In this document: positions 1 through 45,169 of the stretch, in pieces
Position numbering within the stretch: position 1 is the stretch's first letter
How the letters are laid out: each line of letters starts with the position of its first letter
Source of the DNA: Clavelina lepadiformis
Taxonomy: Eukaryota > Chordata > Ascidiacea > Aplousobranchia > Clavelinidae
Assembly: GCF_947623445.1 (NCBI RefSeq)
Contig: NC_135241.1
Span: 5,768,501 to 5,832,500 of the forward strand
Direction: 5' to 3'
Length of the DNA stretch: 64,000 nucleotides
Notes under the pieces: model-generated
Seen by the model: only the letters and a program-made list of their open reading frames with translations
Told to the model about the DNA's origin: nothing
Database searches by the model: none
Position numbers and translations under genes: made by a program

Positions 1-1653
1 TCAGCTTTAACTTCTCCTATTGATGAAGTTACCTCCCTGTTGGAAAATAGCAACGATGGTGATAGTTCAGCCATGTCTCCATCAGTAACTGTACAAAGTG
101 ACATTCCACATGCGGTTTATTCATCACCCAATGAAGATTGTAAAACTGATTTGCTTCAGACTGATTCCTTACCTGAGGAACTGTTAGTGGATTCTGTCAA
201 TGCAATGTCGTTAGTCTCACAAAATTTAGTCCAGTCTATCTTAAATGAAAATGATGACGCCCATGATGGGTCAAAGCTTGTTTTTAAGGAGTCTGAAGTC
301 CTGACTCCCGGAGTTGAATTACTTTGGGAATCTGAGTTTGCCAGGCAATACAGCGACGCAAATGAAGATGGTCCGAACAACAATTTGTTGGACAATAGCG
401 ACGATGATTATAAAGAAAGAGACAACAAAGCTCATAGTGGATGGAGAAAGTTAATGGACGGTAATGGGGCCTACTACTGGAATATTGAAACTGGAGCAAC
501 ACAGTATGAAGTGCCAAGAGAATTGGAGAATGCCACTGATAATAGCGATTTAGATACCCAGCATTTGGAATCTGTGGATTCCAGTTTAGCTGAATTGGAA
601 GGTGCTGCATTTCGATATGCGTCCCTGCATATTAAAGATGATGATACCACAGATCGTGATGATAGCAGTGAATGGACAGTTAGCAGTGATACCGGAAGAA
701 TGTTTTCGGTGCGTTCACTTGGTTGGCTACCAATGAACGAGTGTTCTTCTGATCCTGAAACTAGCAGTGCAAATGTGAATGCATGCATACGTCATTTATC
801 AAGCAGTCACGGTCAAATAATGGATGGCATTGGATCTTGGGGAGATGGTAAAAACCTGATGCTGATCATAGAGGATGAATTTTTGAAGCTAGTTGACCCC
901 ACCACGCAAACAGTCTTGTCATCACAGTCCATAAAACACATTCGGGTTTGGGGTGTGGGCAGAGAATGTGCGCATGACTTTGCATATGTCGCCAGAGACA
1001 GTCGGAGTAGGACTTACAAATGCCATGTGTTCCGTTGCGATGTATCAGCCAAAGCAATTGCACATGAGCTTCATACTGTTTGTAAAAGCTTATCCGATCA
1101 ACATAAAAAGGCAATACTTGAAGATAAAGAAGCTGAGAAAGAAAAACTTGCCATGAGTACTTCTATACCAGCACAAAGGTCCGAAGCAAGCACCAAGTTT
1201 CCAGTAAAATACTTGGGTAGTAAGCCAGTTGAATCTGTGAATGGAATACAAACCATTAAAAGCGTTATTCGGGACATAACAACAGACAATACAGCTTTAT
1301 GTGAAGATGCGACTGCCGCTATCAGTGCCTCTGTCCTGTTAATCACAAGTACAAGCACTCTCAAAACCCATGTTAATTGTCGCATGCGGTATATGTCATT
1401 TATGGGCATCGGAGATGATATAAGCTTGTTTGCTTTCATTAGCGTTGTTGGTGATAGTGCCCATTGCCATGTATTGCAATGCCTTCCTAATGCTGTAAAA
1501 CTAGCACTGTCCGTCCAAGAGGCTTGCATGTTAAGGTTTCAAAAAGTGGTAGACTCCAAGCAAGTTCTGAATAATCCACCAAAAGCTGAAAGCTCACGCC
1601 GGTCAGTCAGACAGTTTGTAAAAGGGATATTTTCTCGCAAGAAAACATCTTAG
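1..1653 (+). CDS. FE65/APBB-like adaptor protein, C-terminal part (WW + PTB1 + PTB2), 5' partial
   Basis: The frame is open from base 1 (Ser-Ala-Leu-Thr) to the TAG at 1651-1653, giving 550 residues that continue upstream of the window. The codon at 40 is TTG, so it is not a start. Domains: an acidic Ser/Asp-rich leader; a WW domain at about residues 145-174 (first Trp at 148, final Pro at 172); PTB1 at about 234-365; PTB2 at about 400-530, beginning FPVKYLG; and a basic tail. This order is diagnostic of the FE65 family (APBB1/2/3), cytoplasmic adaptors whose second PTB binds the tail of amyloid-precursor-type receptors and whose first PTB binds other partners. Odd points: the second WW tryptophan is Tyr (residue 169, codon 505-507), and all three domains lie in one exon. 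Which vertebrate paralogue is closest cannot be told. No AATAAA is seen close downstream. Confidence 0.9.
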   Translation, partial: SALTSPIDEVTSLLENSNDGDSSAMSPSVTVQSDIPHAVYSSPNEDCKTDLLQTDSLPEELLVDSVNAMSLVSQNLVQSILNENDDAHDGSKLVFKESEVLTPGVELLWESEFARQYSDANEDGPNNNLLDNSDDDYKERDNKAHSGWRKLMDGNGAYYWNIETGATQYEVPRELENATDNSDLDTQHLESVDSSLAELEGAAFRYASLHIKDDDTTDRDDSSEWTVSSDTGRMFSVRSLGWLPMNECSSDPETSSANVNACIRHLSSSHGQIMDGIGSWGDGKNLMLIIEDEFLKLVDPTTQTVLSSQSIKHIRVWGVGRECAHDFAYVARDSRSRTYKCHVFRCDVSAKAIAHELHTVCKSLSDQHKKAILEDKEAEKEKLAMSTSIPAQRSEASTKFPVKYLGSKPVESVNGIQTIKSVIRDITTDNTALCEDATAAISASVLLITSTSTLKTHVNCRMRYMSFMGIGDDISLFAFISVVGDSAHCHVLQCLPNAVKLALSVQEACMLRFQKVVDSKQVLNNPPKAESSRRSVRQFVKGIFSRKKTS

Positions 1654-12179: not shown

Positions 12180-15100
12180 ATGAAGACTTTAAAATCTCAT
12201 TCGTCCTTGCACGGTCACGTGGTTTCCTCCCATCTTCCCGCTGGGAAAGATCGTGCGCTCGCCAACGCCCTCTTGCGCATGAGTGAAAGAACGACAATCC
12301 AGGAGAGAAACAAGACTGATGACGTCATTTATTGTGGTGACAACGAACCTATGTATGGTTGGACGAATGCAGTTCCTAACCCAAAGTAAAGGAATCGATT
12401 TTAGAGTTTCTTTTGCTTCTTTTAGCAACCAAAATATTTATTATTTGTAAAATACAGAACATTACCAGTCAATCAGTTCCCGAGACTAACCTAATGTAGG
12501 TATAAGAACTTTTAAAGCTTAAATCTGCTAATATTAATATTGATAACTTTGGTAATATACTAAACGGACGTTTTTCTATTCTGCTAAAACAGTTTCTTTG
12601 GCTTTTGACGGTTTTTGTTATTCTGTATTTTAATCCATTTTTCTTCCTAATTAATCACCTTATTTCAACTCCCTGATTTAACGTCACGCTGATCTGTAAC
12701 CCCAGATACTCGGATGGAAATAGACCAAAGAAGATTGTGGTAAAGAAAAAAAAGCTTGCAAAGAAGATTCAGATTGATCTTGAGAGAGCTGAACAGCTGG
12801 ATGAGTTGACTTTGAGTCTCAACAACGTGTCAACAAATGTTGACGGCCAGTATCATACTTACGCCACGTTACGCGATATGTATGACAACTATAAGGTAGG
12901 TACCGCTTGAAATTGAAATACTAGATACTATTTATTAATATTTGCTTTAAAATTGCTTTGATACTTGTTGCTCCCAATTTTTTCATGCTTTTGTACATAT
13001 TGTTTGGTTTTGATAAAGGACTTTAGCTCTATCATAACATATAAATCATTTTCTCTTGTATGGCAGAAAAATATGCAGCTTCGCTCTTTTTCGAAAAACA
13101 AGGAAATAATTGATCCAGTCACGTTCAAGTACATTCCATGGGACGAAAGGAAAGAAGGGAACAGTGGAGAAATTAAACTTCCCACTCTTAAAGTATGTTT
13201 GCTTTCACGCTTTTGTTGTCTATAACTATAAGAGGGCCCTGAATACATCCACTTACAGTATATAATAAATGCCGGCATGGACAATTCGTTATATTTGGTG
13301 ACTTACAAAAGTATGACGTAACTTCGTGGTTACAATATTTTTGATTAAATTTTCGAATGAATCAAATAAGCGAAGTTTATTTTGCTGTTTTAAACCCTTT
13401 TGAAGATGGCGCACGCCACTCAACCAAGCAAATTAATTGAAGTGTTGGAAAAGTATATGAAGAAACAAAAACAACCTAAGCGCAGAGGAAATCGAGTTAG
13501 TGATAGCAACTCATCATCGGAAGACAGTGAAGCAGCAGAATATTCTGACAAGTGAGCATCTTGCTGTTGTTGTGTAATAATATTAACACATACAGTATTT
13601 GTTTACATAATATTTGTCATTAAGCGTTGTTTTGCTAAGGACAAGCTGAATGTTATAAAATAGTTAAATAGAAACTTATTTATTCCATTCTAAATGGTTG
13701 GCCTTTTAATTGTTGAAATTTATGTAAAAAGGCTTTGCTTGTGATAATTAGACGCACTATTTATTGAGTTTATTCTTAAGCCAACAGTTTCAAATCGAAA
13801 AACGCCTGTCAGTGTCTAGTTGGTTTCATAGGCCAGTCTCTGCTGTTGTAAACCTAGGAGAAACTATAAACACACGTTCCATTATTCTTCGTATAGAAGG
13901 AGCTTGTTTGATATAGCAAAAGACACTGATATTTTGTTTCCCTAAACTATAACACTATCTAACTGTGAAGCTACCTGTTCTATGTTGCGGAGAATCGTCA
14001 AAACAGTGTCCGAAAAAAGAGCACTGGGCAGGCAAAGAAACTGATAAATCTATTTACTTAGTAAGAATTCTATCGTGAGTTGAGATTTAAGAAAGGGAAA
14101 GTACATAAAGCATACCGGTATTTGGATTTGGCAGTCCGGATTTTTGTGGCAATGAAACCTATTGACTATGCCGAAAAGGTCAGCGAGTTGTTTTAGTTGA
14201 TAGACGTTGCAATGAAAGCAATGTCCAAAACCGTACAACTGTCCAACTATTAAAGTGTTTCTTGATTTAAATGCAGATAAACTTGACCTAACTCAAGCAT
14301 TTGTTCAAACTGGGGCTTTGTAGCATTTCGAGAATTTGGGCATTGTTGTTTGTTCAATTTGAAGGTACAAATGGAACTTCAAGAAAGACAAGTCGAAAGA
14401 TAAGATAGCACAACGACGAGTTGCAGCAAAACGAAAAAAAGAACACATCCACCTTCCGGCCATCACAACTAGAGGAGATAATGTCGAACCGAACGTAAAA
14501 GAACGACTTATCAGGTTAAGCGACTTCCCATTTTGGCTTTAAGAACGAATCTATTTTTACGGACATAATCGACGATAATTAAACAAGCAGAGGTTATTTG
14601 TAACAAAAGTTTCTTGTTTGTTGGTGGTAAAATCGTGTTAACTTCAATAGTATTGTAAAAGTAAAAATTGGGCATAACCTCAAGGGTTAACTACAATTAC
14701 TTAACGCGAGTTTAGGCAGGCTTGATCTTGTTTCTTCAGGTGTAACTATAAGATGACAAAACGATTCTTGGTTGACAAAACACTGCTCACACCACACATA
14801 TTAACATAGGTTCCTGTTATTATGGTTACTTGTTTTTACCGTGCACACAACCCCACAGGTACGTGAACGGAGCCGTCCACAACAAGCGGAAAAACAACAC
14901 AATCTACAACAACGGAAGAAATGTATTCTATATAAACGTTCGAGGCGGTGACAGCAATTCAAACGGACCGGAGACAATTAAACTGGAACGCAAAAGAGAT
15001 ATGGGACCAAATGGTGGGGACCGATGGGTAGCGCGAGTGATTATCAAAGAGCCGGAGGAACCTGCTCCGAATGGTTCATGCAAAAATGATACAGAGTCGA

Positions 15101-20230: not shown

Positions 20231-23200
20231 ATGTTATTGACACATATGTTGGTGTTAATAACGACCTTCGTCTGTTCAATTCATGTCAGCGGGTTATCAA
20301 ATGATTCAAATTTTCTGATAGAAGAGGTAAATTTTCAACGTTCTGGTCTTATATTTTACAAAGACATTGATGATACAAAAGCTTGTATGTGTATTAAGAT
20401 TTTTACAAGTCGTTTTCTTGGGCAGGATCTTCCATTCGAATTCGACGTTGAGAGAAATGTTCATAAAACTGTGAAAAGGCAAGCGGAAGAAAATGTTATT
20501 CAGGTTGAAAAACGCTGCGAAGATCTACACAAAAATTGCAGGAGATGGGCAAAGCGTGAATATTGCAACCATCCCGACTATACGCGTTTTATGGTGTTAA
20601 AATGTCAACGCAGTTGCAATCTTTGCGACGGTAAGTCCAGTGCATAATTCATTGACTATTAGCCGTTTTTCGAATGTTAGCCGTTGATTTTATAAAATTA
20701 TACCAGCGTTAACTATTCGTTAAAAAAGAAATTGTTTTTGTAGATGGTGATGGCGTAGCGTCCTCTAACGTCAGTAAATCTTGCCATGATCAGCGCGATG
20801 AATGCGAGTACTGGGCCGACACTGGACATTGCCGAGATGAAATGTATCAAAAGTTTATGACCCTCAACTGCAAACGTTCTTGTCGTCTTTGTCCTGGTAA
20901 GTCTTTATTTCAAAACAATGTAAGTTTGCAAGCTACGTAATGAAATCTGTACAAAAAGTGTTGTAAAATACTATCTTTCAGTAGGCCAAAACAAGGCTAA
21001 ATTTTAGCGTTGCACTATTCTAGATCAACAGCCTTCTACATCTGCCAGTACAACCAGTACATCCGCGGTTGTGGTTACTGTTTCAACTTTCACCGTTTCC
21101 AATGTCACGATTCCTTTCGAGACCACTGCTGAGGCGCAAACAAGTTCAAAGTTGACAACAACAGTTACCGCATCTTCATACACAACAGGTAATCTGTCAT
21201 GGCTCATTTCAAGTTATGATTTATGATAGTTACATGCAGTCTCACAGATAGTGTGTCTTACAAATCCTTGATGTGTCTTGAAACGATATTTGCATGCTAG
21301 GCTGAAAGTGAGGGGTAAGTTCAAGTAGTCTTAAATCAAAGAGTAGTTGCCGGTAACAGTAAGTATACTGAAGAAAGGATTTTTAAAAGTATGTAGTGGT
21401 TAAGCAATTTTTGCCAAAATTGTCCCAAATTTGGTTTATTTCATGGCAGAGATGATTTTTTAGGAAGACATTATGACGTCACAATGTAAACCAATATGCT
21501 TCATCATTGGGATTTGCATTAGGTATGGTAGCATAGTAGCTAGCTAACGTGTTTTAGATGTCTCCATGGACCATACACAGGTGATTAGCAGCAGGTAATG
21601 TTATTTTCGGCATGGGAATGCCACATATGACAGTACATGGAATGGTAAGGCATTCTTGTTTTTACGACAGTTACGAGTACCATACTAGGCTAGTAGAGGC
21701 AGCCAATACTGAGCTGTGTCGTAGCATTTACATCCATCAGTACATATACACGAACGGTAAGTCAGTTTAGGGTTATTTAACGCAAAATATACCTGTTGTA
21801 CACTTAATTACGCTATAATTATACCTATAACTTGTCGGCCAAACGAAACATTCTATTCATATTTGATCCACATACATGCGTCATCGATGTTGATGCTTTT
21901 ATTGTGACATAATAACAGACGCTGTCTACGTCATAATTAAGCGACGAATTTGCGTATTTTTGCCACATATTTATGGTAATAACTGCTTAAACACTACAGA
22001 TTAGTACAAATCTTTTTTGGAGTATATTTAGTGACAACTACTCTTTGATTAAAGGCCAACTTGGTTTCTGACTTAACCTTCACTTTAATATCTTTGTGAA
22101 AGTTCCTAACTAATTCTTCAAGCAATCTTCAAATCTTACCTAATTCCTGTGAAATGCTACTTTAGTAGGGATGTACAGCACGGAATACTTAGCTATTGTA
22201 GAATAGTTTATAACAAATCGTTTAGAGTCGTAGTTGCACTTCGGTATTTGTAGATGTACAAGATCAGACAACGGATATGTATTTCATTTCCACTGCCAAC
22301 GTTACAGACGAAGTACGCCAGACGACAGAAATTCAAACACCCACGCAGTCGATTGTAACTTTTGCCACCAGTGCAGAGAATTTGGTTTCATCCACAGATG
22401 CCACTATAGAAAGTTATGTTTCGACCGTTGAAAGCTTGGTTGATAGTAAATTGGCAAATGATAGTATAAGCACCCCCGAAATTGACACTCTGACTACAAA
22501 AGTAATACAGAAAACCACCGCAGCAACTGCAATTCCGCAAAAAGAAACCGCCACTCCAAACGTTCACCATGCTAATGACGTCACCACAGATGAAACTTTT
22601 ACCACCGAACAGACAGATGTCACCATTCATACTTCCGAGTCTGCTGTCGGAGCCGCAACAACAAGACCTGAGTCGCAAACTCAAGGAGCCCCTCAATGTG
22701 AAGACAGACTCACAACTTGTCGTTACTTTTCCGAGAACAGCTGCAAGACATCAACGCTGATGAAGCTTTTTTGTCCAAAAACGTGTGGATTATGCGGAGG
22801 TACGTGCAGTCAGTAGCCTACGCATCTGATCACAGCAATTAATAAAACCAAAATGGCATAATCTTTATTGCTCGTCATCGTTAGTGATTTTCGTCCAAAT
22901 TTTGCTTGCAGATGTTGCCATGAAGACTGAAATACCATCAAGAACAAACACTGCTACAGATATAAACCCAACAACTAATCACGTAGACATGACAACAGTT
23001 TATACCGCAAGTGATGTTAGCTTCGTGTCTACACTTGCTCTCGACCTAATCGGCACAGGGCAAACGAGCATTAGCAGTGATATCAGCACTGCTCCATTTA
23101 AAACTATTCCCAAGTCATCTACTTCAGCTACAGTAAGTTCAAACGAAACGACATTCATACCAGAAATGACGACAGTAACAACCACAATCATTTCTGAAAC

Positions 23201-24166
23201 AAGTCTGCCTTGGCAAGATAAAACCCCAATGGAAGAAAGCACATTTAAACACAGCACTATTCCTGCAACCTTTGAATCAATAACGAGTCCAGCTACCAGA
23301 GGTAAAATCTACATTATATAAACTTGGTTCTCTCTGAAAGTTGCAGTCACCGTTCCTGATCTATAGCGAGATTTTTATGTTTACCACGTAGAGTGTTTGG
23401 ACTTGTTTGTAATTTTGTATCAGGTTGTTTCGATGAATATGCTGAATGTTCAACTGTATCTGTGTTCTGCGGTATCGTGGCGAATGTAACCGAAAGTTGC
23501 CGCCTAACGTGTGGCGTGTGTCAGGTGGCAAGTACTGTGCCGGCTGGAACAATCTCGGTCACACCAAGAACCACTCAACTAGCTACGACAGGTAAAAAGT
23601 TGCAATTGACAAAAATGGAATACTAAGTACCTATATGCCTTCACCTTTACGCAAATACCTATCCAGTAAATTTCTAACCGATCTGTTACAAAAGCAGCTT
23701 CAGTCAAATGTGAAGACACTTTCCCGAACTGCGCTGAAATGCTCTTAGGCTGTAAGCAGCCTCAAACGGTTGCTTTTCTCAGCAGAACGTGCAAAAGAAC
23801 ATGCGGTTTTTGTAGCGATGAGGTAGAGCTGACAACAATGAAACCTACAGAAGCTGCAAGTAAGTTAACATTCTCTGGCGGTTTCACAAAAAAGTCAATG
23901 GGTAAATTTCAAATCCAGTTACGCATATACCCTGGTGTTCTTTGAACAAAGGAAACAACGGTTACAACTTCCTGAGCATTCATATAATGAGCCTTCTGCC
24001 TACCATTTAATTTAATAACCGTAAGTAATTTGTTTAACAGAACCATGCAACGACACCGTAGAGGTTTGTCAAACTTGGGCAAACGCAGGGTTTTGCGATA
24101 CATATATTTATCCACAAATGGAAGAGTATATGAAAGTGCATTGCAAAAACTCTTGCAAATTATGTG
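20231..24166 (+). other. N-terminal region of the mosaic protein: signal peptide, ShKT1-6, mucin-like segment
   Basis: Exons: 20231-20326, 20426-20630, 20744-20896, 21024-21188, 22254-22799, 22912-23301, 23424-23591, 23698-23859, 24041-24166. A VKR and an EKR site precede the first ShKT (Cys at about residue 63) and could be processed by a proprotein convertase. ShKT1 and ShKT2 fill exons 2 and 3. Exons 4-6 encode about 360 residues dominated by Thr, Ser, Val and Ile, a likely O-glycosylated stalk; ShKT3 ends exon 5. ShKT4, 5 and 6 occupy the next three exons, with short Thr-rich linkers. The 99-nt intron 20327-20425 is a multiple of three with no stop codon, so it could be retained. Confidence 0.82.
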
Positions 24167-27100
24167 GTGAGTACAATACGATGTTGCAACTACTTTTAAA
24201 GCGAAAACCAGTTCGCATAAGACGGTCATTGGTCACCCTCAGTACAGCGTTTATGGTTGAAACGAGTTTTTAAATTTTAGATGTCAGCAGCTGGTCCGAG
24301 TGGTCGCAATGTAGCACGAGTTGCGGTGGAGGGGAAAAAACCAGACAACGACCTTGCAATGAAGGTAATGGAGGGAAGGGTAAATTTTATAGACAAAAAG
24401 AAAATTATAGCAAACCTATATACATAAACATCTACATATAGTTCCAGTTGGTGTAATAATTTATTTAGGTAGTTAGGCTAAGTCGTTCATCTTTCTGTTT
24501 TAGTGGGCTGTACTGAGCCAGTGATTGAACGACGCGAATGTTCCAGTGAAGTTTGTCCATTAGAGCCCAACAAATGCGTTGACCGAATGTCTACGAGGTC
24601 TTGTGTCCAGTACAAGGAAAAGGGTAAGAAAATATCCAGGCATATGTTCGACGTTTTGAAAAACAAACAAGCATTTGATTATTGTCAGGTGCATGCAACC
24701 AGGAACCCATCGATATTCTTTGCAACGCAACTTGTGGGTTCTGTTCAAATGACCCCCCTGCAGGCAACAATACTTCAACGGGTAATGAGCTTGGTTGGCT
24801 ACATTTCGATCAGTCTATATATAAACAAAAACTTACAACAACAATAATAGATAATCATGCACTTGCAATGTTCTTAAAGGCAGTGCATTTGCTCATATTT
24901 CTCATATTAATTGGTAGAAATTTCAGGTAATGAAGTATGTGAAGACCAGCACGAACGATGTACGAATTGGACGGAACGGGGATTTTGCCGTCAAACCTAT
25001 TCAAACTATATGAAAGCAAATTGCCCCAAATCTTGTGGATTATGTGATGGTGAGTGAATTGTTACATTCGAACTCTCATTGGCGAGTGCTTGCATAATTT
25101 ACATCCTTGTGTTTTCAGTATGGCTACAATGGAGCGGTTGGTCGCTGTGCAATGCTACATGCAATGGTGGGGTACAAAGCAGAAACCGAACTTGTGCAAT
25201 AGATAAATGTGTCGGAGAGACAACTGAGATGACAACGTGCAATACATTTCAGTGTAATAGTAAGTTTAAAGAAAATATAGTCTGAAAAAAATGTGGAAAT
25301 GGTTCATGCAATAGACCTAATCCAAGCAAGTACACTTGCCTAGGGAACAGTTATGTGCCTAAATTACTGTATTTATACTTAGCCTGTGTCGACCAAACAT
25401 CTAGCTGTTCTTTGCTGGAAAAGGTCGGAAAATGTCGAGAAGTTCTCTGGAAGTATATGTGCAAAAATACCTGTGGGCTATGTGCGGAGCCCCCAATGAC
25501 AGGTAGACGTTATACCACTCATTTATTAACAGTTATTTTTGTTGGTTGTGAATGAGTTGGTTGGTAGTTAGACACTGACTTGTGACATAAAATATATTTT
25601 AGGTCGTTGCGCCGACACCAGACAGGAATGCTCGAACATCACTTTGAGCAGCCAATGCTCAAATCCTTCCGTAGCCAACGCATGTCCAGTAACATGCGGA
25701 AAGTGTAATGCTCCAACTGAAGCAACCCCCATTACAACAAGTGAGGACGACTGGCTTGAAGTTTGTTTTTATGTCATGATCTCCCACTTGTTTGCAAGCG
25801 GAATATCGTTTATATAGCACTAATCAATAACTTCACAATGTTTGTGATTGAGGTACGCGGCGTCCGCAGAGCTGCGTAGATAACGACACTAATTGCCCGC
25901 TTGTTGCAAAATTGGGTCAATGTTCGGACAATCGAGTTTCCAGCACCTGCCCTTTCTCCTGTGGAGTGTGCGTAAAGAAATTCGCCGGACCCTCAGATAC
26001 TTCCGACAACGAAGCACCAGAATGTATCGACCGACTGAGCGTGTGTGCTAATCTTACTGCTGAGTGTGGAAACTCACTTGTGCGGAGTTACTGTCCCAAA
26101 TCGTGTGGACTTTGCCAAGAGCAATCAAGTATGTCTTGAGAAACATAACCGAAATATTTGCCAGAATAGACGTTGTTACGTATAAACCTGTAAGCTATTA
26201 GCATTTTCTACTTCAACTGTTTTCCCTTTAAAAAATTCTTATGTATACGTCACAGATTATGAATGTGTCGACATAGACTCGACTTGTCCAAAACTTGCCA
26301 GGTTAGGGCAATGTCAAGTAAGCTCATTGGTTGCTCAAAGTTGCAAGAAGTCCTGTAATCCTTCTTATTGCGAAACGCAAGTTCCAACTCTGATTCCTGA
26401 AAAACCCATCGCAATATGTGAAGATAAAAACCTAAACTGCGCCATCTTAACGACTTATTTCAGTTGTAGCAACCAGCTAACGGCTGATTCTTGTCCTAAA
26501 ACATGTGGCACTTGCATCGAACCTACCGCGACCAAAATACCTCAGGGTGAATTTTTTGAAATAATTTACAATAATTTATACTGTATAACGACTTGAAATC
26601 AGGAAAAAATAAAGTATACGTGCTTAACATGGTTTTTCTTACAACGTTTTTCGATAGTTCAGAACCATTTTCAATTTAAAAAATGGTTTAGGTCCCACAG
26701 AATGCAAAGATAACCACACAAAATGTCGGGAATACCATGCAGTCGGGAGGTGTCAGAATATGTTTATTCAGCATATCTGTCCATACTCTTGTGACTCGTG
26801 CGAGGATGTGGAATATATCCCACCCGCCTGTGAAGACAAATTTGGCAGTAGTTGCAGATATATGGAGTCAAAATGCAGCTCTTCAATTATGAAGTTTGGT
26901 TGTGAAAAAACCTGTAAGGTCTGCGATGAATGTCAAGACAGGAATACGGCAGCATGTGAAAGTTTGGCCGACGTTGGAATGTGTTCTCGCGGAAATTTCC
27001 AGGCACTTTGCCCGCGGACTTGCAACGTGTGCGCCGATGATACTATAAACGGTAAAATAAGACAAGATTTATTGATGACCTTCTTTTGCTTTTGGCGGTT

Positions 27101-30100
27101 ATGTTTACGTTAAGTTTTTCACGTCACTTTCGCATAACTAAACCATGAATAGGTAAACTTTGAGGTCCAACCTTCTAGTGCTTAACATGCAACCGTCGTT
27201 GAAATGTTTCTTCACTTTATCTATTTACAAGGAAATGATAACGCTGATGGTCGACTGGAAGTTTGTAAAGATGACATAAGTGAGTGTGCATTCTATGAGC
27301 AGCAAGGTCTTTGCAAGAACCAACCATTGATTCAAACCATGTGCAAAAAGTCATGTGATTTATGCCCTGCAACTGGAACAGGTATTGCAGAGTTTTTGTT
27401 TTTATTAAAGAAATATTTGTGAAACATTAATTACCAATATCATTCTTCAAAAATCTCTGCGTTCTTTGTTTAACGTTTGTGATTTCCTCACTTCAGCTGC
27501 AGATTTTCCCTGCGAGGACTTCAGCGCTCAGCAGTGTCAACTTATTAAGACTTTGGGCCAATGTCAACTTCACACGGAAACCTCGATGACATTTTTCTGT
27601 GCGAAATCGTGCGGACTTTGCCAGCGACCAAACGTTAAAAAAAGTTGGTATACCTAAGCCTATAACATGTCCTACTATTAAAAAACAAATCGTTATGTTA
27701 AAGATTGGGTTAACCAAAAAGCTATTTGGTCAAAGTCACATCTGTAACTATTAAGACTTGTTCTCGATGTGAAAAATGATCGGTTTACGCCTTGCCGCAA
27801 CATTCAAATAATATTTTCTTGTCCAGCCGTGCCACAGTGCAGAGACGACGACCCGTTCGAATGTAACCAGTATAAGGGATTGTGTTCTTATCAATCAATC
27901 TGGACAAAATGCAAACAGACTTGCAACAAATGTGATGAAATTGATCAAGAAGGTGCAGCAAATGACGGCGGTGAATATGATTATGGTATGCATACTTTAG
28001 AGGCTACATTTTATGGAACTGACTGCTGACTTAAACATGGATGAACAAAGGTATTTTTTGGATATTTTTCTCGCTATTGTGGCTACAACGGTACAAGTTC
28101 ATGTTCTTTCAAAAATCTTTTCTAGAGGAAGGTTGTCAGGATAACATGGTCCACTGTTCGAAACACAAAGGCTACTGTGGCATGGAGAGGGTGGGGAACT
28201 ACATGGACTCGATGTGTCCGAGAACGTGTGCAGCATGTCGGAAAGGTAAGGCGACGTATATAGGACAAAATTACTTTGTTATATCGGAAAGACCAAGATA
28301 ACAAGAGGACAGGATCGAAAATCTAATGAAATACTTAAACGACAGATAAACATTGTAAACGTTGTTATGCCCATACTGTAGTATACGCTATAACCAATGG
28401 TCCATTCGACTTCTGCAGTAGGCACCTGGAGCAAGTGGGGATCATGGAGCGGCTGTAGCAAGAGTTGCCACGACCAACCAGGGACCACGAACTTTCCGAC
28501 ACGCACCCGAGCAAGAACCTGCAAAGACGGTGCTTCCTGCAGCGGAAATGATACAAAGATTGGGTTCTGCAACAAGGATGCTTGTCCTTTAGAAGATGAT
28601 CCTGCTGGAAATGGTAATGCTACTTTCTATTAGGAATAGAAATGTTTTGTTTCAAAGTTTTGAATACCGTAACTCTTACTAGAATCTCTTGCTTAATATT
28701 TTACACTTCGTAGCTCCTGTCGCGTGTGTCGATAAAGATGCCCAATGCAGAAAGTGGAAGGAGAAAAAAAGATGTCGTGAACAAAGATACAAAAACCAAA
28801 TGCAAAACGTTTGTCCTTTGACATGCGGCTTTTGTGAGCCACGTAGGTTCTTACTCTTAACTTTTAAATTTGAGATTGAAATTTTGTACCATTTTAGTTT
28901 AATCAAATGTCTAACCATGCGTGTCTGTAGAGTTAATATGGTCAAACTGGAGTGACTGTAATGCTACTTGCGGAAATGGAACGCAAACCCGAACTTTAAA
29001 ATGTGAAGTGGAAAACAAGTGTCGTACTAATCCTAATTTTAACACTACCGAACAACAAAACTGTTTCATTAAGGTGATAATGGAAATTTCTTGAAACTAT
29101 TAATGTGTCTCATTGACATGGCAAAAGCTACCAACCGTACTGGATATAGAAAACTTGTTCATTCTTTTAGCCTTGTGAATCCTGGTCGACTTGGTCGTCG
29201 TGGTCGAATTGTTCCGCAACTTGCGGAACTGGTACCAAACTCCGTATCAGAACTTGCTCGGACGGCGAGGCTGGCGGGAAAATGTGCCCCGGACTTGATA
29301 TTGAAGAGATCGCATGTGCTTCAGATACACCGTGTTCATGTTAGTTAATACGGCTAAGATAGGCGATAAGACTTTCTTCTGTCTCAGCTTGTCTTATTGT
29401 AGCATTCACAACTTTGTCGCGTTTCTTGTCACAAACGCCAGTCTTGTCGATAAGCTGTTTAAAAGCTAATGTCACACAGCTTGGAGCACCTGGTCTCACT
29501 GGAGTGTCTGCAATGCAACTTGTGGACAGGGCTCCAAAACTCGATCCCGGAAATGTCTAAACGCATCTGAAAACTCTACTTGCGCAGGAGAAGCTACAGA
29601 GTCTGATAATTGCAACGGAGTGTCTTGTGTTCTGGTAATTTAACAATACTTAAAAGATAATCTAAATAAAGCTTTAAAACTGAATTTCAATATTCTATCA
29701 GTGGTCTGAGTGGCTGCCATGGAGCACCTGTTCATTGCCTTGTGGGGGACTGGGCACGCAAAAACGCCAGAGGACTTGCTTTGGCGGAAACTTGGCATGT
29801 GGTGATGCAAGTGATGCACGTGAAGAACGCTCATGTGGAAGATTGCAATGTGCACCTTCGGAAATTTGGAGCAATTGGTCAGAGTGTTCCGTTACCTGCG
29901 GCGAATTTGGAGTACAGGAGAGATTTCGATTATGTCCAGGAGAAATGGTATTTAAAAGCTTTTAGCTTCGTTCTTCAAGCCGCGTTAGCGTTAATCCTTA
30001 GTTTGCTGAACTGCTTCGAAACCTTTATATGATCAACGCCAAACAACTGTTGTCTACTCAGGTTTGTCCTGGAAACTCAACTCAAGTTCGTCAATGCGGA

Positions 30101-32323
30101 TCGAATTTACCTTGCATTCGATGGACAGCTTGGACTGGATTTTCTGAATGCACCGTCTCTTGTGGAGGAGGTGTCCAAACCAGAAAAAGACATTGCAAGT
30201 CAAGTATGTGATTCATTTTTGCATGCTGACCTATCAGTATATTTTATAAAGTATATTTCATCTAGGCCTATATGTTATCGTTTTTGTTTTGAAAGAAATG
30301 TCAAAACTTAACAAATCACGTAAACTTTCTAGTTGCACTCGACAAGAGTGGAGAGTGTTCGGGAGAATCGACGCAGTCTATGCTATGCAATTGCAGAGTT
30401 TGCCCCGACGTCGGAGTGTGGTCAGCGTGGGGAGCTTTTGGGGAATGTTCAGTAAGCTGCGGAGGGGGTAATAAGTTGAGGTAAGCGTTTTGCCTTTAAC
30501 ATTTCACGTCTTTTAAAGAAAAGTTAGAATATACAAATTACAATACCTGCTTTAACTATTTTTGCCTGAGATTAACTACAACAAGCTCCATTTAGACGAC
30601 GTATTTGTCTCAACGGTATTCCTGGGCGAGGAGGCTGCCAGGGTCCATCGCACAACGAACAGTCTTGCGGAAAAAACGAATGTCCTTTTGGAAGTTGGAA
30701 CGACTGGACAAGTTGGACAGCATGCAGTTTATCTTGTGGCACGGGAGTACGTTCAAAAGAGAGGTAGGATAGACTTTCGTTTCTAAATCGATTGTTAAAC
30801 AAAGCTAGACATAAAAAATATCGGACATTTATTCACTTAATATATGCAACTGGTCAAGCCTATTTTTCAATTTCTCATTTACACAGAGTTTGCATCGACG
30901 GCGAGGCGGGGGTAAGCGGATGTCCAGGTTTAAACGAGGTTGTTGAGTTGTGCAACAACCAATCATGCCCAGTTTGGTTTTGGCTAGATTGGTCTCCTTG
31001 CAGTACCTCGTGTGGCAATAATGGAATACGACAACGAAACAAAACATGCCTAGACCCATTAAGTAAGCAAAATGCCAGCCTTCAATCAAGGCGCATTATA
31101 GAAATTGATCCAATTATTTTGTTTGGTTTTTGGTGCTAATTTGGCTGTTTTTCTTCAGGTAAGGAAACGTTGAATGAATCATTCTGTGGGCCAATAGTAA
31201 ATATGGCCGAAGAAACACCTTGCAACGTTCGTGTGTGCCCCACCTGGGGTACGTGGGGTAATTGGAGTGAATGTACCGCTTCATGTGGCGTGGGATGGAC
31301 CGGTAGGCAACGAGTGTGCTTAAATGGAAGAGCTGGGGACACTGGATGCGACGATGGCGACGCACAGGAAAAGGAATCGTGTAATGAATGGGACTGTCCA
31401 AGTTGTAAGTTAATAGAATGCCGTCAGTAATTTGTAAATCAATGATTTCATTTCCGCAAAATATCCTTGTGCTTCTTATAACGCATGTGTAGCATGTGTG
31501 TCGGCTCATGTAAGGGTTTGACTGCTGCATTTTCAAGTGTTGTTGTTAAAACATGAAGGCTGTACTGTTGTTTTTTCAGCTTGCCCAGCCGTTCCCATGC
31601 AATTGATCAATGCTCCTGGAGCTTTGTTTTCCGCTTCCAGCGAACTGGAGGGATTTGAAGCCTATCGCAGCATCATGAATACAGACTTTGCTTGGTGTCC
31701 GAAAGCTAGTGACAATGCTAAATGGATTCAGGTAGATAAATGATCTGTGCCTGTTATTCCTACTTCTGAATTTCCTTATCATTTCATTTTTATTATGAAG
31801 CTTTATCAAATGCTTAAATGTACTTCAAACTTGTCTTGCAGATTGACTTACGTATTGCCTACTCTGTGGCTGGTATATCCGTACAGGGCTATCTAAATGA
31901 ATCAACCGGCCAACCGTTTTGGGTATCTCGTTTTCAGGTGCTATACGAAAACAGTAAAGGTAAATTTAAGCCCCTCCTGGATAACACTGGTGGTGCAAGA
32001 ACCTTTATAGGGCCTGTTGGACCAATAGAGATAGCAACGAGGTATGTCAATAGTGGATCTTGAAACTCATTGCTTTGTGCACTTCGGTGAATTTCGTGTT
32101 ATTTGCTGTTAGGCTACGTTTTTACGCAAATAGGCTATAACGTAAGATCGTTTAGGAAAATATTTTATTTTTAATCAGGCATTGGGAACCAGTGGAATCA
32201 CAAAGTTGGAGGGTTAAAGTTTTATCAGTTGAGCCCAGAAGAAAGGGCTGCCTGCGTATGGAGTTGCTTTCATGCCAAGGAAATCCAACTTTCGGTGGGG
32301 CTTTATCTGAAGTGGCAAAATGA
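20231..32323 (+). CDS. Giant secreted mosaic protein: ~22 ShKT domains, mucin-like stretch, ~13 TSP1 repeats, C-terminal F5/8C (about 37 exons, ~2248 aa)
   Basis: The first exon encodes a signal peptide (hydrophobic residues about 2-20). Thirty-seven exons joined by GT-AG sites give 6747 nt in a single closed frame, stop TGA at 32321-32323. Order: ShKT1-2, Ser/Thr-rich region, ShKT3-6, TSP1-1, ShKT7-8, TSP1-2, ShKT9-21, TSP1-3, ShKT22, TSP1-4 to 13, discoidin domain. Exons from 20744 to 28842 are all phase 1-1, as expected for exon shuffling and tandem duplication. ShKT is a six-cysteine fold named after a sea-anemone peptide and is common in extracellular animal proteins; TSP1 and F5/8C modules bind glycans, matrix or membranes. 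No transmembrane segment or GPI signal is visible, so a matrix, tunic, mucus or haemolymph protein is inferred. The exon list is in the four sub-entries below. I know of no named protein with this architecture. Confidence 0.9.
21331..22052. mobile_element. Diverged long-inverted-repeat element in intron 4 of the mosaic-protein gene
   Basis: AATCAAAGAGTAGTTG at 21334-21349 is the exact reverse complement of CAACTACTCTTTGATT at 22035-22050. The similarity continues inward for about 80 bp with mismatches (for example GTAAGTATACTGAAGAAAGG against the complement of the segment ending near 22030, and a TAGTG-TTAAGCA motif in both arms). TTAA lies at both outer edges (21331-21334 and 22049-22052), which could be a piggyBac- or Kolobok-type target duplication, although the arms are one base out of register there. 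It is about 720 bp with no ORF of note. Older than the other two elements. Confidence 0.6.
24281..28842 (+). other. Central region: ShKT7-22 interleaved with TSP1-1 to 3
   Basis: Exons: 24281-24364, 24504-24623, 24689-24781, 24927-25049, 25119-25259, 25383-25502, 25603-25740, 25853-26128, 26256-26546, 26692-27051, 27232-27381, 27497-27643, 27827-27985, 28126-28245, 28419-28613, 28714-28842. Most exons hold one ShKT in the pattern C-x-D...C...C...C-x-x-[ST]-C-x-x-C. Exons 25853-26128 and 26256-26546 hold two each, and 26692-27051 holds three. TSP1-1 is split between 24281-24364 and 24504-24623, TSP1-2 is 25119-25259 and TSP1-3 is 28419-28613; each shows W..W..C...C. ShKT7 is split by the intron at 24624. 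ShKT13 has wider spacing between its last two cysteines. Confidence 0.85.
28931..31404 (+). other. Tandem thrombospondin type 1 repeats 4-13
   Basis: Exons: 28931-29073, 29171-29339, 29480-29634, 29702-29947, 30062-30203, 30333-30480, 30596-30763, 30887-31062, 31159-31404. About ten TSP1 repeats follow one another with typical motifs such as WSNWSECSVTCG and WSAWGAFGECSVSCGGG. The WxxW motifs are C-mannosylation sites and the CSxxCG motifs are O-fucosylation sites in this family. Unlike the ShKT part, intron phases here vary (0, 1, 2) and introns often fall inside a repeat, so this block has a different duplication history. Confidence 0.88.
31580..32323 (+). other. C-terminal F5/8 type C (discoidin) domain
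   Basis: Exons 31580-31731, 31842-32041 and 32179-32323 encode about 165 residues. They begin CPAVPMQLI and include AKWIQIDLRIAYSVAGISVQG and FQVLYENSKGKF, and end with LRMELLSC. The first and last cysteines would form the usual closing disulphide. The Trp-Ile-Gln-Ile-Asp-Leu core and the final MELLSC are typical of discoidin domains, which bind phospholipid, collagen or sugars through loops that cannot be assigned from sequence alone. Confidence 0.88.

Positions 32324-34870: not shown

Positions 34871-45169
<10,299 letters not shown>

Follow-up and report, generated by a model that had tools for sequence, protein, structure and literature searches.

The window analysed here comprises 64,000 nucleotides of Clavelina lepadiformis chromosome 2 (C2:5768501-5832500, within a searched genome of 209,060,895 bases in 95 contigs). 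Positions 20231-32323 of its forward strand can be spliced into one frame of 37 exons and 2253 codons, running from an ATG at 20231 to a stop codon that ends at 32323, with no internal stop. Long open frames are absent from this region, the longest one between positions 15000 and 36000 having 186 amino acids, and exons were placed manually by three-frame translation and splice signals. The hand-built model with 36 exons encodes 2286 amino acids, with GT-AG at all 35 junctions and a single terminal stop. A probable 99-nt phase-0 intron splits its first exon, which gives the 37 exons and a protein of 2253 amino acids, in agreement with the size of about 2250 residues proposed in an earlier note on this DNA. 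A variant of exon 1 with an intron at 20385-20425 was discarded, as by hand reading it yields a stop. The features of the locus are the following.

20231..32323, + strand: whole coding span, 37 exons and 2253 amino acids (36 exons and 2286 amino acids with the first intron retained); all junctions GT-AG, one terminal stop
20231..20326, + strand: exon 1, start codon and signal-peptide-like hydrophobic segment; residues 1-19 are the most hydrophobic 19-residue stretch
20327..20425, + strand: probable 99-nt phase-0 intron (donor score 6.4, acceptor 2.7); frame also open if retained
20426..20515, + strand: propeptide-like stretch; of its two Lys-Arg sites, one is immediately before ShKT1 (the second); putative processing
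20516..20892, + strand: ShKT 1 and 2, the sole two of 22 with a basic and aromatic pair at the dyad place
21024..23301, + strand: Ser/Thr-rich mucin-like stalk (exons 21024-21188, 22254-22799 and 22912-23301), with ShKT3 inside
22697..22795, + strand: ShKT3, inside the stalk
23426..24165, + strand: ShKT 4-6
24283..24556, + strand: TSP1 module 1, two exons, interleaved (Pfam TSP_1, residues 706-754 of the 36-exon model)
24575..24744, + strand: ShKT 7, split by an intron
24938..25045, + strand: ShKT 8, which ranks first among the Pfam ShK matches listed genome-wide (E 6.8e-9)
25121..25258, + strand: TSP1 module 2, interleaved
25385..28238, + strand: ShKT 9-21
28041..28125, + strand: in-frame ATG and hydrophobic run within the intron that precedes ShKT21; weak candidate for an alternative start
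28427..28588, + strand: TSP1 module 3, interleaved
28725..28835, + strand: ShKT 22, downstream of TSP1 module 3
28843..28930, + strand: 88-nt in-phase intron, candidate gene break; no AATAAA, and the next exon has no in-frame upstream ATG
28936..31400, + strand: TSP1 modules 4-13, exons of mixed phase
31580..32320, + strand: F5/8C (discoidin-type) domain, three exons, with a Cys near each domain end; PDB matches to neuropilin and factor VIII C domains

As for the gene structure, 35 of the 36 introns measure 65-183 nt and the remaining one 1065 nt. Most junctions are in phase 1 (28/36, with junctions 2-25 all in this phase), 5 are in phase 0 and 3 in phase 2. A crude gene finder recovered 32-33 of 36 hand-placed exons exactly and in one chain, missing the first and the last two; because of its training on this same gene the result is circular, and it establishes no more than the chaining of the internal exons in one frame. 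For a 12.5-kb stretch it scored 633 on the forward strand, against 19 on the reverse strand and 0-14 in five 2-mer shuffles, and over longer stretches its prediction extends into neighbouring genes. Elsewhere in the window, a 537-residue open frame at 40-1653 (+) has a WW-like and PTB-like region and by eye is Fe65/APBB-like. Exons of a coiled-coil gene, also recognised by eye, are found at about 34874-36416 (+), starting ~2.5 kb downstream of the stop codon at 32323.

The encoded protein contains 216 cysteines. Past residue 30 every 19-residue stretch has a hydrophobicity of at most 1.42, that is, there is no second strongly hydrophobic segment, and the signal-peptide-like start supports the earlier proposal of a secreted protein. 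The order of modules is: signal-peptide-like start, propeptide-like stretch, ShKT1-2, stalk with ShKT3, ShKT4-6, TSP1-1, ShKT7-8, TSP1-2, ShKT9-21, TSP1-3, ShKT22, TSP1-4 to -13 and F5/8C. The earlier note had placed the ShKT modules, stalk, TSP1 repeats and F5/8C domain in simple succession. Its modules and the C-terminal F5/8C are retained here, but the stalk lies among the first ShKT modules, TSP1-1, -2 and -3 are interleaved and ShKT22 comes after TSP1-3. A purely bipartite layout, ShKT and then TSP1, is ruled out by the three TSP1 modules among the ShKT modules. The gene model is real and coherent, and its modules had been correctly counted (22 ShKT, 13 TSP1, a Ser/Thr-rich stalk and one F5/8C, from Pfam and cysteine pattern); the layout in the earlier title was simplified.

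For the Pfam search, the 36-exon protein was divided into two pieces (the first 1482 residues and the rest), with the F5/8C domain submitted separately. The 22 ShKT modules were counted by cysteine pattern. Pfam ShK stretches that individually pass E 0.1 number 17 in the first piece and 1 in the second (whole-protein E 1e-80 and 5.6e-7), and the four modules beyond these 18 were assigned from the cysteine pattern and a profile trained on those modules. Six cysteines and one Asp are invariant in all 21 aligned single-exon modules, the intron-split ShKT7 being excluded. Profiles built from the gene's own modules found no other ShKT or TSP1 module at E <= 0.05 when all 64 kb of the window were read in six frames.

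The six-cysteine ShK pattern of potassium-channel toxins is present in these modules. They were scored at the position that we take to be that of the channel-blocking Lys and aromatic dyad: ShKT1 has Arg-Phe, ShKT2 has Lys-Phe and the other 20 have no such pair. From these residues, potassium-channel block by 20 of the 22 modules appears unlikely, and block by ShKT1 and ShKT2 would be an unproven activity. Among solved relatives, ShKT2 matches a zinc metalloproteinase ShKT domain (2mcr, E 0.0024), while the match to MMP23 (2k72) is non-significant (E 0.43). ShKT1 (20516-20626) is basic-rich and directly follows a Lys-Arg site, in the manner of a peptide-toxin precursor, and this region might release a short ShKT peptide.

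Of the 13 TSP1 modules, Pfam TSP_1 reports 2 in the first 1482 residues and 11 in the rest. The WxxW motif, read from motif lists, is present in all 13, and the O-fucose motif C-x-x-S/T-C-G in 10, a count that excludes occurrences of the same text motif at the ends of ShKT modules. Modules 4-8 have PDB matches to properdin (E 3.7e-32) and thrombospondin-1. Mean identity is low, both among ShKT modules (33%) and among TSP1 modules (36%), so that a recent tandem duplication is without support. A separate observation concerns C5:9194315-9284030, where dozens of same-strand TSP1 matches over ~90 kb perhaps mark one or more giant TSP1 genes (best 150 of 873 candidates scored).

The stalk, found between ShKT2 and ShKT4, has 334 residues excluding ShKT3, with 37% Ser+Thr. 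At the other end of the protein, the single F5/8C domain is assigned by Pfam F5_F8_type_C with 40.4 bits (44.5 bits and E 2.1e-11 for the domain alone), above the curated cut-off of 28.2. No paralogue of this domain was found, as tblastn across the genome (E <= 0.001) returned 3 matches, all of them its own exons. A genome-wide Pfam search for F5/8C omits this very domain, which is split over three exons, and negative results of that search elsewhere, including the cluster described below, thus prove little. F5/8C matches are densely clustered at C6:4.03-4.25 Mb, C7:19.74-19.99 Mb and C2:24.59-24.79 Mb. Several matches in the C7 cluster are equal in score and ~10.5 kb apart, like tandem copies.

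We then consider whether the hand model joins two or more separate genes, which could be divided, for example, at 28843-28930 or at the intron of 1065 nt (21189-22253). No other intron comes near the latter in length, and it contains ATTAAA, a signal present in 3 of the 36 introns; AATAAA is also found in 3 of the 36. Our reading is that AT-rich introns contain such signals by chance. All of the remaining 35 introns are short, stalk sequence flanks both sides of the 1065-nt intron, and the exon at 22254 that follows it has no in-frame upstream ATG, which is found in 6 of the 36 exons after the first. As for a break near 28842-28931, which the earlier note had raised, it is not borne out: the site is the in-phase intron of 88 nt, which has no AATAAA. 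With ShKT22 placed after TSP1-3 and before TSP1-4, the alternation of ShKT and TSP1 continues as far as the break suggested at 28.8 kb. Separate genes are accordingly improbable, and one gene is the reading that we keep.

The locus could also encode, besides the long protein, a shorter product (ShKT21, TSP1, ShKT22, ten TSP1 and F5/8C) from an alternative first exon before ShKT21. Besides the true start, the only ATG that opens a strongly hydrophobic run (score 2.59) lies before the exon at 28126, with an acidic linker immediately before it. Hydrophobic frames do arise by chance in T-rich introns, however, and a clear cleavage site is absent by eye. The intron in question (27986-28125) has 140 nt and neither AATAAA nor ATTAAA, which leaves no room for two separate genes. 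We give the short form a very small chance, and a single long product remains the preferred reading.

In terms of relatives elsewhere in the genome, no close paralogue of the gene was found by tblastn (best 93 of 461 candidates scored for the N-terminal part). This search was made exon by exon and on candidates only, so that a split or diverged paralogue might escape it. The N-terminal ShKT/TSP1 part gave at least 102 matches, its own exons first and then TSP1 and ShKT similarity at 30-53% identity. Across the genome, Pfam ShK has 49 matches at E <= 0.001, and this gene accounts for 8. Eight other ShKT regions were considered, and in six of them an enzyme or CAP-like domain stands beside the ShKT modules:

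C2:22.8: ShKT and trypsin
C1:7.2: ShKT, astacin and trypsin
C2:5.0: ShKT, EGF and trypsin
C8:12.8: ShKT and astacin
C7:15.2 and C7:13.1: ShKT and CAP-like

Domains at C1:7.2, C2:5.0, C8:12.8, C7:15.2 and C7:13.1 were recognised in crude gene models from motifs and by visual inspection, with trypsin positions taken from genome trypsin matches. No enzyme or CAP-like domain was seen at C4:19.75 or in a 5-kb piece at C2:9.071. The genes at C7:15.19-15.23 and 13.09 Mb have three ShKT modules, and at both loci a CAP/CRISP-like domain, named CAP by eye, comes next in minus-strand predictions.

On the same chromosome, the cluster at C2:22812511-22875677 contains six loci, on both strands, in which TSP1 matches are followed by trypsin matches on the same strand. 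ShKT was found in five of the six by our own profile, two of the five being weak (E 0.011 and 0.047), and Pfam ShK is above cut-off at 22839669 and 22850725. Two short genes of the cluster were submitted to Pfam: trypsin was found in both and TSP_1 above cut-off in one, with no ShK at E <= 0.01, the ShKT there coming from our own profile. A one-sequence profile, which is a weak test, detected no F5/8C in the cluster. At C2:9.071-9.076 Mb there is another locus, with a ShKT and 13 or more TSP1; trypsin matches fall at 9.0699-9.0706 and 9.0878-9.0903 Mb. The pairing of ShKT and TSP1 is not unique to the gene in the window, as it recurs beside trypsin-like domains on the same chromosome.

From the module anatomy and the solved relatives of its parts, we infer that this gene, with no close paralogue found, encodes a secreted, non-enzymatic and multivalent extracellular scaffold, predicted to bind surfaces, glycans or proteins (probability of about 0.6). 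Its modules would have come together as phase-1 exons were shuffled and duplicated. Going by their motifs, the TSP1 modules may be modified with C-mannose and O-fucose and serve to bind proteins or glycans, and the F5/8C domain may bind a membrane or glycan surface. The ShKT beads would be mainly rigid protein-binding or structural units, not channel blockers. The whole molecule could then link cell surface, mucus or tunic matrix, possibly gathering related ShKT/TSP1 proteases. The role in matrix, tunic or immune surface suggested earlier is plausible on these predictions.

The same pairing beside trypsin domains allows for another origin, in which the gene is a derived member of a ShKT-TSP1-trypsin protease family and, after loss of the protease domain, now regulates the proteases. 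The hand-built model does have ShKT and TSP1 in one protein, but the catalytic domain is absent: Pfam finds no trypsin in the protein at E <= 0.1, and no trypsin match falls within the window among the matches listed (best 150 of 388 candidates scored). The matches of the N-terminal part elsewhere, among those listed, are also just 30-53% identical, and the cluster has no detected F5/8C within the reach of the one-sequence profile. We consider this origin unlikely.

A further proposal, drawn by analogy, is that the protein has no enzymatic activity of its own and is dedicated to docking proteases or acting as their cofactor. In this role, the ShKT and TSP1 modules would pair with those of the ShKT/TSP1/trypsin proteases from other parts of the genome and the F5/8C would anchor the complex to a surface, within a lineage-specific extracellular protease system. 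Factors V and VIII bear F5/8C domains and serve clotting proteases. The odds that we attach to this proposal are slim, and the general scaffold stands as the main reading.

If one transcript spans the locus, it would represent a large ShKT array (22 modules, the most per gene among the regions examined) on an enzyme-free scaffold with a domain of surface-binding type, in a close relative of vertebrates. It would also be a clear example of how matrix or defence proteins are built via phase-1 exon shuffling, and a concrete candidate for tunic, mucus or immune-surface biology in tunicates.

Finally, we compared the protein with known systems. SCO-spondin is a giant secreted protein with a TSP1 array and F5/8C, VWD, TIL and LDLa domains, and it is not known to have a ShKT array. 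Our protein shares the TSP1 array and F5/8C; unlike SCO-spondin, it has a ShKT array and no VWD, TIL or LDLa by Pfam at E <= 0.1. The Toxocara mucins Tc-MUC-1 to 4 are not known to have TSP1 or F5/8C, and they have far fewer ShKT modules. ADAMTS, ADAMTS-like proteins and papilin are marked by a metalloprotease and/or an ADAMTS spacer domain; Pfam finds neither in our protein at E <= 0.1, although TSP1_ADAMTS repeats are listed.

In the part of the literature consulted, a limpet TSP1 adhesive has been likened to SCO-spondin, and the ShKT domains of a limpet mucus protein and of the Toxocara mucins reportedly lack the channel dyad (PMC7333891). Those SXC (ShKT) mucins resemble our protein in having ShKT on secreted mucins (cited in the same source, PMC7333891). 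Properdin, described as TSP1-only apart from its signal sequence in the portion seen of PMC5446238, has chains matched by TSP1 modules 4-8, and our protein differs by adding ShKT, stalk and F5/8C. According to the portion seen of a review (PMC5793123), Ciona has ShKT domains, and other proteins combine these domains with thrombospondin-type repeats. Oikopleura house proteins include TSP1 and, per a supplementary legend, ShKT domains (PMC3390340, likewise in part).

No named protein with ShKT, TSP1 and F5/8C was found in the open-licence PubMed Central literature among the matches listed, where the slash in F5/8 may hide records. The portions seen of PMC12549020, PMC4820225, PMC4224354, PMC1867822, PMC3651406 and PMC11593599 hold no closer case, and that of PMC12373286 does not have the terms. 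The absence of a named orthologue is thereby weakly tested. The suggestion of an undescribed architecture holds for the full combination within that search, but not for the pairing of ShKT with TSP1. This is already known from the anemone Aiptasia pallida, whose Ap_Trypsin-like protein (2 ShK, 4 TSR and trypsin) was called a novel domain combination in the part consulted of PMC5446238, and it is also present in the C2 cluster. The anemone protein is alike in having N-terminal ShK modules and then TSP1 repeats in one chain, and differs in its C-terminal trypsin, with no stalk or F5/8C described in that part of the source (PMC5446238). The loci at C2:22.81-22.88 Mb share TSP1 repeats, mostly with ShKT among them, but have trypsin-like domains downstream, fewer ShKT modules and no F5/8C detected. 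What appears distinctive in the sequence is then the number of ShKT modules, the lack of an enzyme domain by Pfam, the mucin-like stalk and the C-terminal F5/8C. The protein is a new mix of familiar parts, made of shuffled phase-1 extracellular modules, and not a new kind of system.
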